Positions 32,095 through 37,989 of a stretch of 64,000 nt of DNA are shown here, in pieces (positions within the stretch are counted from its first letter, which is position 1; every line of letters starts with the position of its first letter). This stretch comes from Chitinispirillum alkaliphilum (GTDB lineage: Bacteria > Fibrobacterota > Chitinivibrionia > Chitinivibrionales > Chitinispirillaceae). The DNA is taken from contig LDWW01000011.1 of the NCBI GenBank assembly GCA_001045525.1, positions 1 to 64,000 of the forward strand, read 5' to 3'. Below the pieces are notes generated by a model that saw only the letters and a list, made by a program, of their open reading frames with translations, searched no databases and was not told where the DNA came from. The translations under genes and the position numbers were made by a program.

Positions 32095-33360
32095 TTATTG
32101 GTCTTCCTTTTTTTCGGTTTCACCGATAAGGGAATCCAGTGTTTTCTTTTCTTTCAGGTCGGCTCTGATTCTATTTGTGGTACCGTTTTTACGCAACACC
32201 CCTTTGAGGGTTTCAAAGTCCTGACCATACATCTGAGCCAAGCGCAAAATTTCCTGATCAACTTCTTCCTGTGTTGGTTTGATCTTTTCTTTACCGGCTA
32301 TGTAATCCACGATTCTCTGCTGCTTAATGCTGTTTACAGCGGTATCATGGTACTGCTTCTCCAACTCCTCTTTAGGTGGAGGTTGCTGCCCCTGCCCATA
32401 CCTCAGAGCCTCTTCATACATGTAGTCGGTAAAGGCTTTGATACGGGATGGTGGTACATCGAAAGGGTTCTCTTTAATCAGAGTGTCTATAGCCTCTTTG
32501 TGAGCATCTGTTTTTGCTTTTTCCAGTTCCTGATTTTCCATATCCTGACGAATTCGCTCCTTCAGAGCATCAACATTTTCGAAATCGCCCAGTTTTTTCA
32601 GGAACTCTTCATTAACTTCCGGGAGGTGTTTTTCCTGCACATCAGTAAGGAGCACCTTGAATTCCCCGGTTTTTCCGGCTACAGCAGAGTCGTCGTACTG
32701 TTCAGGGAATGTAATAGTGACATCAATCTCCTCCCCTTTTTTACGACCCGTTAGAGCTTTATCAAACTCTTTTAGCTCGGTTTCGCCCCCAAGCTGAATA
32801 GGATGCTGAGGATTTTGGATATTTTTCTGTTCCTCACCATCGATCATAACTTTTCTGTATTCAAACCGGATGTAATCCCCTTTTTTTGAAGGTCTGTCCA
32901 CATCCTTAAACTCTGCCATTCTGTCCAGAAATTTCTCATACTCTTTATCTACATCACTCTTTTTGATCTTTTGGGGCTTTGCCTTAACTTTAAGCTTGTC
33001 GTAGCCCTTGATTTCGATTTCAGGATCAACTTCGGTTTCGATAGAAACAGTCAGGGGTTCACCTTCGTTGTACTTGATGTCATTAACTATAGCCTGAGCA
33101 ACCGGGTTGATGTTGTTTTCCTTGCATGCATCCCTGTATGATTTCTGAACCATCTCATCAACCAGCTCTGCTTTGATAGCATCCCCGAAACGCTGTTTAA
33201 TGAGAGTGAGTGGCACCTTTCCCGGCCTGAATCCGGGCATTTTTATTTCACGTTTGGTTTTCTGCAGTTTTTTATCGTATTCCTGCAACATCTCTTCTGC
33301 AGGGACTTCGATATCTACCACACGCTTCCATGATTCTGGTTCGGAAACAGTTGTTTTCAA
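32095..33360 (-). CDS. tig: Trigger factor
   Basis: 421 residues from a TTG start. The open frame extends upstream into the tRNA-Leu gene, but the TTG at 33358-33360 has a perfect AGGAGG (33370-33375) nine bases before it and gives the normal N-terminus KTTVSEPESWKRVVDIEVPAE (a 21-residue stretch; key residues W10, V13 and E17 in the ribosome-binding domain). GFRPGKVPLTLIKQRFG is the ribosome-docking loop region. The PPIase domain (about 160-245) and the helical C-terminal arms follow. The protein is a ribosome-associated chaperone. clpP and clpX lie downstream as usual. Confidence 0.95.
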   Translation of the reverse strand: MKTTVSEPESWKRVVDIEVPAEEMLQEYDKKLQKTKREIKMPGFRPGKVPLTLIKQRFGDAIKAELVDEMVQKSYRDACKENNINPVAQAIVNDIKYNEGEPLTVSIETEVDPEIEIKGYDKLKVKAKPQKIKKSDVDKEYEKFLDRMAEFKDVDRPSKKGDYIRFEYRKVMIDGEEQKNIQNPQHPIQLGGETELKEFDKALTGRKKGEEIDVTITFPEQYDDSAVAGKTGEFKVLLTDVQEKHLPEVNEEFLKKLGDFENVDALKERIRQDMENQELEKAKTDAHKEAIDTLIKENPFDVPPSRIKAFTDYMYEEALRYGQGQQPPPKEELEKQYHDTAVNSIKQQRIVDYIAGKEKIKPTQEEVDQEILRLAQMYGQDFETLKGVLRKNGTTNRIRADLKEKKTLDSLIGETEKKEDQ

Positions 33361-33408
33361 CGGACCGATCCTCCTGAAAATATTTAGGGTTAAATTTGCG
33401 AAGAGAAA

Positions 33409-33490
33409 TACGAGAGGGGGGACTCGAACCCCCACAGGTCGCCCCACCAGATCCTAAGTCTGGCGCGTCTACCAATTCCGCCACTCTCGC
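33409..33490 (-). tRNA. tRNA-Leu (anticodon TAG)
   Basis: 82 bases on the minus strand. The acceptor stem GCGAGAG pairs with CTCTCGT (with a terminal G-U), the anticodon stem CCAGA/TCTGG encloses loop CTTAGGA with anticodon TAG, and GGTTCGAGTCC is the T-loop region. A long variable arm is present, as expected for class II Leu. CCA is not encoded. It lies only 48 bases upstream of the tig start codon on the same strand. Confidence 0.95.
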
Positions 33491-33523
33491 AAAAAAATTA
33501 TCGCTGTGAGAAACAAGCAGAAA

Positions 33524-35403: not shown

Positions 35404-35460
35404 GGGGACGGACCATGGTTTTGTGCAGACTGAAACGCGGCACTCTCTAGGACGGACCAT
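35404..35460 (+). repeat. GGGACGGACC repeat doublet 1 (forward)
   Basis: GGGGACGGACCAT at 35404-35416 and GGACGGACCAT at 35450-35460, in the same orientation and 46 bases apart. They are REP-like short repeats associated with the tyrosine transposase gene downstream. Confidence 0.75.
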
Positions 35461-35603
35461 CTTTTTATGCAATTATGGCAATGTTTTTTGAACCAATCCT
35501 TTTCTTCAATTTATTTCCAACATGGAATAATATTTAGCTACCACTTTCAAACAACACCCTAATGGCCCATCTTCTGAGAAACTTAAACTACAAACTTTGC
35601 CCT

Positions 35604-35659
35604 GGGACGGACCATGATTATCTTAAGACTAAAATACGGCTCTCTATGGGACGGACCAT
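35604..35659 (+). repeat. GGGACGGACC repeat doublet 2 (forward)
   Basis: GGGACGGACCAT at 35604-35615 and again at 35648-35659, same orientation, 44 bases apart. This doublet begins the second copy of the ~200-bp unit. Confidence 0.75.
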
Positions 35660-35872
35660 TTTTTATGCAATTATGGCAATGTTTGTGGACCAATCCTTTT
35701 CTTCAATTTTATTCCCAATTTGAAGCAATGTTTAGCTTACCCCCTTCAAACAACCCCCATAAAGGCACATCCTGTGGGAAATTTGATTACTCCACCCCCC
35801 AACACTGAAATGGTTTAAGTTTTGCTTAATTTTAGGGTGAATCAAAATCAAACCATTGTAGAGGATACCTTA

Positions 35873-36865
35873 ATGCCCCGTATGAGACGTCTGGAATCGC
35901 CCGGTTCTCTTCACCATATCATGGCTCACTCAGTAGAGCATAAAGACATGTTCCGTAATGATGAAGACAGACACGAGTTTCTCTCAAGGCTAGAAAAGGG
36001 GCTCAAAAAAACTGGTTTTCAGTGCTATACCTGGACGCTTATGGATAATCATTATCACATGCTTATCAGAGCTAATCATCTTAAATTAGAAAAACTGATG
36101 CGGGGTCTTAACGGAGGGTATGCACAATACTATAATAGAAAGTACGGAAAAAGGGGATATCTGTTCCAGGACAGGTTTAAATCAGCGCTCTGTCAGGATC
36201 AGAATTATGCTGCTCAGCTGATCAAGTATATCAATCTCAACCCTCTTCGTGCTGGCAAAGTAAAATCATTAGAGCAACTAACAGATTACACCTGGTGTGG
36301 TCACGGATACTTATTGAACCAAAGGGGTGCTCTGGGTGAAACGTTTCAAAACCGGATAGTGTCTTTAAGCAGGTTTGGCCAAGAAGAAATAGAAGCCATG
36401 GACAATTATCTTAAGTTCCTTGAAGAAAATTATGTGAAAGAGAAATCTAAACAAGCAGGAAAACTTCCAATAACCGAAAGCATCGAAATATCAAAATCCT
36501 GTAAGGGATGGCCTGCTGTAATAGGAGATCCGGATTATGTTACAAGTTCTTTACAAAGGTACTGCAGCGACATGAACCGCAAGCACCGTGAAGTTGATTA
36601 CCATCCAATTTTAGTGAATATAGCAGAGTGGGTATGCAAAAAACATAAAATAGATGATTTGTTCAAACGTGGACGTCAAAATAGCAGATCAAAAGCACGG
36701 ATTGAGTTTTGCCATCATTCACATAGAGATGAGCTCATTCCACCTTCGGCAATTGCAAAATACCTGAAGATCACTATTGGTCCGGTATTAAGAATGATAG
36801 ACATTGGAGATTGTATAGAGAAAGACAAGCCTACAGCGACCAGGAAATTTACTGTCACAACTTAA
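35873..36865 (+). CDS. REP-associated tyrosine transposase-like protein (Y1_Tnp/RAYT)
   Basis: 330 residues. LESPGSLHHIMAH starts the Y1 domain, NHYHMLI is the HUH metal motif (His60, His62), and KYINLNPLRAG carries the candidate catalytic tyrosine (Tyr119). Members cut single-stranded DNA at hairpin repeats. The ATG at 35873 has GAGG eight bases upstream; the open frame extends further but without such a site. A C-terminal region of about 165 residues (WPAVIGDPDYVTS, later IAKYLKITIGPVLRMI) may be a DNA-binding extension. Four repeat doublets lie around the gene, forward upstream and inverted downstream. It is probably a domesticated, single-copy enzyme. Confidence 0.85.
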   Translation: MPRMRRLESPGSLHHIMAHSVEHKDMFRNDEDRHEFLSRLEKGLKKTGFQCYTWTLMDNHYHMLIRANHLKLEKLMRGLNGGYAQYYNRKYGKRGYLFQDRFKSALCQDQNYAAQLIKYINLNPLRAGKVKSLEQLTDYTWCGHGYLLNQRGALGETFQNRIVSLSRFGQEEIEAMDNYLKFLEENYVKEKSKQAGKLPITESIEISKSCKGWPAVIGDPDYVTSSLQRYCSDMNRKHREVDYHPILVNIAEWVCKKHKIDDLFKRGRQNSRSKARIEFCHHSHRDELIPPSAIAKYLKITIGPVLRMIDIGDCIEKDKPTATRKFTVTT

Positions 36866-37028
36866 AATTCAGATTTTTTCCCCAACACAGTTTCCGGCTT
36901 TCTCAATCAAAATCTAAATATTCATAATCCGCTTTAAACAACCAGCTAAGATTAAATACACAGTTTATGTGTAATTTACCCATATCAATATTTGATTTTT
37001 TTCTCTACAACGGTTTTGTTTCATGTGC

Positions 37029-37067
37029 AGTCCGTCCCCAATCAGAATTTATTCAACGGTCCGTCCC
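37029..37067 (-). repeat. GGGACGGACC repeat doublet 3 (inverted)
   Basis: AGTCCGTCCCC at 37029-37039 and GGTCCGTCCC at 37058-37067, i.e. the reverse complement of the upstream repeats, 29 bases apart. The doublet lies between the RAYT gene and the kinase-like gene. Confidence 0.75.
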
Positions 37068-37091
37068 TACAATGAATGTAATGTATAAATC

Positions 37092-37847
37092 TTACACAAA
37101 TTCAATGATAGTAAGTAATACTGTCCCTCCAATCAAAAACAAAAACGGTGAATCCCAGGTGTGTGGGGCAACTGCTTCAGCAATAGTCATTGCAACAGGC
37201 ATCGCGATACTTGCAGCCCAAAGTTGTGTGTCTGTAAAATTGCCATGGAAAAACAAAACTGCTAATATGGAGCTGACAAAAACACAGACACTTCCGGCAA
37301 ATGTTCGGGTGTATGACTTTTTTGAAAAAATAGCCCTTGCTTTATACCTTCTTTTTCCAAATTTCACACCGACAGGTTCTGCTAACCCATCCCCTATTCC
37401 ATTGATGAGCAAAGGGATATAAATAAGCTTATATTGTCCTCTGACATAGAGCATATATGCTAAGGGAACCAATACAGCAAATCCCGCAATTACCTGTGTG
37501 GAGAGCCACAGCACTGTATGTGGACGGTCCTCGGGCCTGTCTATTGAGGCAAATATAACTTTAATGAATCTGATCCGTTCTCGAACCGGTTTTGTGATAA
37601 ACAGAATCAATACAGCTAAAAGTATACCTGAAAATACCGAAGTGGCAAGTGTTGGTGTGTACGGGAAAAAGTCTGTAAAAAAGAACGGCAGAAAGAAAAC
37701 AGTGAAGTGAACGATCTTTCGGGTGTAATTAACCTTAAAGCCACGCAAGGCTAAAGTGCCACTGAAATAAGCTACAACAGCAAGACCCAGAATGGTAAAA
37801 ACCTGAGTAACAATAAAACCGCTCTGCGCAAGGGAATCCATGCTCAT
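37092..37847 (-). CDS. Phytol/dolichol kinase-like membrane protein (CTP-dependent family)
   Basis: 251 residues with six to seven membrane helices. RKIVHF early in the protein, and GIGDGLAEPVG.KFGKRRY followed by SYTRTFAGS later, match the phytol kinase/SEC59/CDP-diglyceride synthase-like family. Known members phosphorylate isoprenoid alcohols or diacylglycerol with CTP. The substrate here is unknown; a polyprenol for glycan synthesis is one guess. It is flanked on both sides by inverted GGGACGGACC doublets (37029-37067 and 37932-37989), so it may have been carried or rearranged with the RAYT repeats. Confidence 0.72.
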   Translation of the reverse strand: MSMDSLAQSGFIVTQVFTILGLAVVAYFSGTLALRGFKVNYTRKIVHFTVFFLPFFFTDFFPYTPTLATSVFSGILLAVLILFITKPVRERIRFIKVIFASIDRPEDRPHTVLWLSTQVIAGFAVLVPLAYMLYVRGQYKLIYIPLLINGIGDGLAEPVGVKFGKRRYKARAIFSKKSYTRTFAGSVCVFVSSILAVLFFHGNFTDTQLWAASIAMPVAMTIAEAVAPHTWDSPFLFLIGGTVLLTIIEFV

Positions 37848-37931
37848 ATGCTCTCAGCAGATTAGGATATTACTTTTTCTCAGGAAGTGGAGTGCAAAGA
37901 GTGTACCAGAGAGGTGTATCAGTAATTGTAC

Positions 37932-37989
37932 GGTCCGTCCCCTCAACTCAGTACAACTCAAATCACAGAATATGTACAGTCCGTCCCCC
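37932..37989 (-). repeat. GGGACGGACC repeat doublet 4 (inverted)
   Basis: GGTCCGTCCCC at 37932-37942 and AGTCCGTCCCCC at 37978-37989, 46 bases apart, each preceded by GTAC. The orientation matches doublet 3 and is opposite to doublets 1 and 2. Confidence 0.75.

Follow-up and report, generated by a model that had tools for sequence, protein, structure and literature searches.

A probable TIRtron in Chitinispirillum alkaliphilum: a RAYT-type transposase gene with ends probably marked by an inverted motif

Chitinispirillum alkaliphilum carries a Y1/HuH tyrosine transposase gene that lies between doublets of a short motif. We describe this locus within a stretch of 64,000 nucleotides (the window, positions 1 to 64,000 of contig LDWW01000011.1) and compare it with related loci in a search of 41 genomes, its own included, 21 of which hold homologues. 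The features of the locus are listed below in window coordinates.

35404..35414, plus strand: motif U1, the outermost left end, GGGGACGGACC
35405..35802, plus strand: tandem duplication, two copies of a unit of about 199 bp, each headed by the motif
35449..35458, plus strand: motif U2, AGGACGGACC
35604..35613, plus strand: motif U3, a copy of U1
35648..35657, plus strand: motif U4, a copy of U2
35873..36865, plus strand: Y1/HuH tyrosine transposase gene (TIRYT; TnpA-Y1 subclass 2.1 / RAYT group 1), ATG start, 330 aa
36050..36058, plus strand: HuH metal-binding motif, H60-Y61-H62 in NHYH, from an alignment of 24 homologues
36227..36229, plus strand: codon of the predicted catalytic tyrosine Y119 (YINLNP), from the alignment and the Y[IV]xLNP signature of subclass 2.1 (PMC6006769)
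36515..36862, plus strand: predicted C-terminal helical domain, residues ~215-330, DnaA domain IV-like by AF2 and Foldseek
37029..37039, minus strand: motif D1, GGGGACGGACT; its 10-mer at 37029-37038 is GGGACGGACT on the minus strand
37058..37067, minus strand: motif D2, which with D1 forms the right-hand end nearest the gene
37092..37847, minus strand: membrane-protein-like gene between the inner and outer right-hand doublets
37932..37942, minus strand: motif D3, GGGGACGGACC
37978..37988, minus strand: motif D4, the outermost right copy, GGGGACGGACT; 37978-37987 is GGGACGGACT on the minus strand

The protein is a RAYT-type enzyme, as an initial annotation of this DNA had supposed: the reading frame is intact and its 330-residue product matches Pfam Y1_Tnp (PF01797) at E=3e-12. 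It scores 62 bits against the NCBIfam REP_Tyr_transpos equivalog (NF047646), under the cut-off of 80, and a sequence search for solved structures returned none close to it. The dN/dS between the transposase and its homologue in a relative, G006, is 0.11. An AF2 model of the whole protein (pLDDT 86.5) has E. coli TnpA-REP (4er8) as its best Foldseek match, at E=6e-7, and also matches 2xma and 2vjv. When the C-terminal ~117 residues are modelled alone (pLDDT 88), the top 11 Foldseek matches are all DnaA (domain IV), with probabilities of 0.93-1.00 but E-values of only 0.08-0.6; two homologues show Bac_DnaA_C at E~1e-3, under the Pfam cut-off. The modelled domain thus resembles DnaA domain IV, with weak E-values, and agrees with the DnaA_C-like tail described for subclass 2.1 (PMC6006769).

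The window has nine copies of the core GGACGGAC where 0.7 are expected, and eight of the nine are the sites of the initial annotation. The 10-mer GGGACGGACC has five exact copies (0.04 expected), a number reached in 0 of 100 shuffles. The eight sites, five of them exact GGGACGGACC and three with a single end mismatch, form four direct doublets with spacings of 44, 44, 29 and 46: two forward upstream of the transposase gene and two inverted downstream. Their presence and orientation are as first described, with some end bases and positions corrected. The two upstream doublets both exist; they are copies within a single tandem duplication (35405-35603 and 35604-~35802) and so represent one event, not two. 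This duplication runs from motif to motif: the left edge of the ~199-bp unit is the motif head, and its right edge lies at about the expected position of the next head.

D1 and D2 lie 175-204 nt from the stop codon, similar to the right ends of homologues. The outer right doublet sits beyond another gene, which makes the right end of the element ambiguous. That membrane-protein-like gene has no Pfam match and a 56% identical orthologue in G006, in another neighbourhood and without the motif; it is a candidate cargo or a bystander. Elsewhere in the window, a tRNA-Leu gene (33408-33491) covers the opening codons of the trigger factor ORF (GTG start, 32095-33447), whose start is therefore probably further in.

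Within its own genome, the window gene is the only member of its RAYT clade. Pairs of GGACGGAC 15-45 nt apart number four in 4.43 Mb, all at the window locus (none in a reversed control), and GGGGACGGACY has six copies genome-wide, four of them at the locus (control 5). The window motif is thus not a dispersed REP in this genome. There are six Y1_Tnp genes, five of them long, and each long one has its own inverted variant; the other four carry GGGGACGGAGTTG; GGGGACAGAGTTGC with GGGACGGAGTTGC; GGGGACAGAGCTGC; and CCCCGGAGGTGATTT. Like GGGGACGGAGTTG, GGGGACAGAGCTG belongs to paralogues in this genome. The variant GGGACRGAGTTG, which accompanies two other RAYTs, has 45 matches genome-wide against 0 in the control; 14 are beside its two genes and the rest are scattered, several at contig ends, and include tandem arrays of 15, 21 and 44 bp.

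Some of these scattered sites have structure of their own. Tandem arrays of GGGACGGAGTTG have units of 21 bp (L263; C41, 114-437), 44 bp (L264; C14) and 15 bp (L265; C3), and 21-bp arrays of other motif variants occur in G006 (C30) and G001 (C173). Two contig ends, L266 (C27) and L268 (C14), have in common a longer sequence headed by the motif, GGGGACGGAGTTGCATTTWATAACCTCATTTTTTTAAAATCATATTGCAG, and arrays L263 and L265 have GCACTAAAAACGATTGACATTGGTACTGGTAC in common; these shared sequences probably represent additional repeated elements that terminate in the motif. The RAYT locus on C33 (L009/L018) has a differing head, CCCCGGAGGTGATTT, and three motif copies on one side at ~112-bp spacing.

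Across related loci, the orientation of the motif is fixed by its side of the gene. Over 145 loci, GGGACG is found upstream 147 times on the plus and 10 times on the minus strand, and downstream 28 and 130 times, respectively. A separate 80-locus set, drawn mainly from Deltaproteobacteria and Elusimicrobia, has 62 loci with the upstream motif forward and the downstream motif inverted, and one with the reverse. The motif GGGACGGAC also flanks homologues of 55-70% identity in relatives. Each RAYT gene has its own variant, and the variant tracks the protein tree: the seven-base variant changes 39 times on the RAYT tree, against a mean of 65.5 and a minimum of 61 in 200 shuffles.

Dispersal also follows the cognate gene. 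Four relatives with the window's RAYT clade have 39, 26, 46 and 33 copies of GGGGACGGACY (controls 7-9), and five relatives without a close homologue of the window gene have only 0-1. The dispersed copies lie mainly between open reading frames, and they include gene-less inverted pairs 52-350 bp apart as well as tandem arrays. Because the variant matches the clade and the motif is dispersed alongside the cognate gene, recognition of the motif by the RAYT, proposed in the initial annotation, is supported, and GGGACGGAC is very probably the cognate site of the transposase. The initial annotation would have been undone by a motif absent elsewhere in the genome; in C. alkaliphilum this is nearly the case, and it is the dispersed copies of close relatives that rescue the idea of recognition.

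Domain-wise correlation of motif distance with protein distance did not separate the N- and C-terminal domains. Residue 96, a Tyr in the window protein (Y96; window 36158-36160), adjoins the region responsible for GTAG reading in E. coli TnpA-REP. Where it is Tyr, GGGACG is followed by G, and where it is His, mostly by T or C (26/4 versus 6/38). This apparent covariation, with only five independent tree pairs (mean 1.2 same, 0 opposite), may be taken as a lead only.

Paralogous copies in relatives place the boundary of the repeated unit at the motif head. In G016, two copies that are 94% identical (L060/L068) have AGGGGACGGAC as their exact start, and the DNA to its left is unrelated; in a CCCC-headed family L094 and L095 likewise start exactly at the head; in G011, the right end of two 94% identical copies (L110/L111) is 4 bases past the head. 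The repeated unit is therefore the gene with its ends. The proposal that the doublet is the mobile unit is not supported, since in this genome the pair occurs only at the window locus and the units of relatives start at the head and carry the gene.

The surroundings of the window element fit insertion: in five relatives, the PDE gene that adjoins the element here is accompanied by neither a RAYT nor the motif. A search of relatives for an empty site gave no strict example, as the flanking genes are not adjacent and gene order is rearranged, and there is no sign of recent movement of the window copy, with its motif pair at a single locus and its clade single-member in this genome. The G006 homologue has a separate motif-to-motif duplication of 203 bp, with a spacer sequence unrelated to that of the window; together with the 199-bp duplication, this shows that such duplications recur. 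Slippage or the enzyme could be their source.

In distant relatives the end repeat is two-part: a GGGACG head and a tail with an 8-bp direct repeat. Among the distant homologues, the sequence after GGGACG matches itself at lag 8 with z = 24; 55 of 139 tails have at least 6 of 8 lag-8 matches, and other lags from 4 to 15 give at most 6 tails. The repeated 8-mers are diverse: 30 distinct ones stand first in their tails. T-runs mask the 8-bp repeat in the clade of the window gene, where lag 8 is a small local rise only.

The two ends also differ in their surroundings. In distant homologues, TTGAC follows the upstream end within 46 nt at 25 of 74 loci and the downstream end at 0 of 65, which often places the upstream end directly beside a promoter, against its -35 box. 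This asymmetry favors an autoregulatory reading, in which the motifs are double-stranded operators of the gene's own promoter and the gene is domesticated, with no transposition today. The predicted DnaA-like domain would suit binding of double-stranded DNA, and some relatives retain the motif and purifying selection despite lost catalytic residues. We nevertheless consider this reading improbable: downstream copies equal upstream ones in regularity, units bounded by the motif head and copies of 94% identity among relatives point to mobility, and scanning the window locus for promoters gave no signal beyond that of shuffles.

In the relative G008, the RAYT paralogues L098, L099, L101 and L086-L091 have degraded catalytic motifs, one family with NQY[DNS] and Tyr to Ala and the other with HYE. 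They are multicopy, with open frames and a dN/dS of 0.10-0.19, that is, purifying selection, and several keep flanking family-specific motifs.

The initial annotation read the motif as the REP core of the enzyme and the doublet as the mobile unit. As a classical REPtron, the locus would have GGGACGGACC as its REP core, and the doublet would be a REPIN that the RAYT mobilizes in trans. A RAYT homologue with motif copies adjoining its gene accords with this, as do the dispersed copies and gene-less inverted pairs of the relatives. E. coli TnpA-REP (4ER8; PMC8266576) shares with the window system a Y1/HuH fold, inverted flanking sites and enzyme-site co-evolution; the window differs in having no palindrome or GTAG, an extra C-terminal domain of ~115 residues, and direct-doublet sites. 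The window doublets are direct rather than inverted; their folding does not surpass that of shuffles (z-scores -0.3 to 1.2), and they hold no GT[AG]G-tagged palindrome. No GT[AG]G-tagged hairpin lies beside the gene as in REPtrons of groups 2-3, and the motif head is GGGGAC rather than GT[AG]G. The pair is at one locus in 4.43 Mb, and relatives have 26-46 single motifs per genome. A published survey saw no REPs at subclass 2.1 genes (PMC6006769). With folding and the genome search both against it, we rejected the REP hypothesis, which we regard as very improbable. Membership of the IS200/IS605 family, whose Y1 transposase fold is shared (2xma, 2vjv), fares no better: the protein has 330 aa and a C-terminal domain rather than a short core only, the ends are inverted repeats without subterminal hairpins, and there are no near-identical copies in the genome.

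Least credible of all, and to us scarcely plausible, is that the doublets and duplications are passive replication products between short repeats, uninformative on the enzyme: tandem duplication between direct repeats is a common slippage product and the 15-44-bp arrays are minisatellite-like, but the inverted downstream copies, the clade-specific variants and dispersal only with a cognate gene are left unexplained, and slippage may well be right for the source of the extra copies alone.

We find it likely that the locus is a TIRtron, a Y1/HuH transposase gene with its ends marked by inverted GGGGACGGAC, and it is better classed so than as a REPtron; its motif is then the terminal inverted repeat (TIR), not a REP. 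TIRtrons and their TIRYT transposases were described by Di Nocera et al. 2013 (PMC3733652). There, inverted repeats with no relation to GTAG REPs stand on either side of a Y1 gene; they may be single, dimeric or grouped, and some families are dispersed in the genome. The window gene has H60, H62 and Y119, and its flanking inverted repeats are not GTAG REPs. GGGGWSAS is described as common to some TIRs, not all; against this consensus, the window GGGGACGG matches at 7 of 8 positions and the paralogue L021, GGGGACAG, at 8 of 8. The direct doublets at each end and the upstream 199-bp motif-to-motif duplication set the window locus apart, and neither an 8-bp tail repeat nor exact unit ends at the head appear in the text consulted.

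The protein also agrees with subclass 2.1 (Quentin et al. 2018, PMC6006769), whose members are long, have NH[YF]H, FQ and Y[IV]xLNP motifs and a DnaA_C/HTH-like C-terminus, occur in few copies and lack REPs. The window has NHYH and YINLNP for the NH[YF]H and Y[IV]xLNP signatures (Table 1, PMC6006769), and its C-terminus agrees by a fold match with E-values of at least 0.08. That survey reported no REP-like sequences at subclass 2.1 genes and left the TIRYT link for confirmation; in contrast, inverted motif pairs are the rule here, at 62 of 80 diverse loci.

For the TIRtron we propose the following mechanism. The transposase would act on its TIR: the N-terminal Y1 domain would nick single-stranded DNA at or beside the GGGG head of each end, a position suggested by the unit boundaries, and the enzyme would then join the ends. 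The DnaA-like C-terminal domain may help to choose the cognate repeat by sequence rather than by hairpin. The transposing unit would be motif, gene and inverted motif, and the window copy may be active today. Gene-less inverted pairs and stand-alone doublets in relatives would be non-autonomous derivatives, the gene-less pairs being moved in trans; the extra direct copies (doublets, the 199-bp duplication, and 21/31/44-bp arrays elsewhere) would result from motif-to-motif rearrangement, with either the enzyme or slippage as its cause. We advance a fuller version tentatively, as possible but somewhat doubtful: the end signal of group-1 RAYTs would be two-part and non-hairpin, with a constant GGGACG head read and nicked by Y1, a variable tail with the 8-bp direct repeat read as double-stranded DNA by the DnaA-like domain, and the upstream end doubling as operator of the gene. 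The nuclease would be dead in some lineages, with the DNA-binding protein and its sites kept.

No non-IS subclass of the family is larger than subclass 2.1 (RAYT group 1), which makes up 14.9% in Table 1 of the survey (PMC6006769). In the open-licence literature we found no biochemistry of this subclass, and against that literature several features are apparently new: the GGGACG rule, the direct repeat of 8 bp in the tail, the head as boundary of the unit, the -35 box that often adjoins the upstream copy, the resemblance of the C-terminal domain to DnaA domain IV, and the families that have lost catalysis. The window locus itself is one further TIRtron. The GGGACG rule, with its gene-specific tail, side-fixed orientation and unit ends at the head, gives each protein a testable substrate, and the clade-specific variants provide ready-made cognate and non-cognate pairs. 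Families with lost catalytic residues bear on the transition from transposase to DNA-binding protein.
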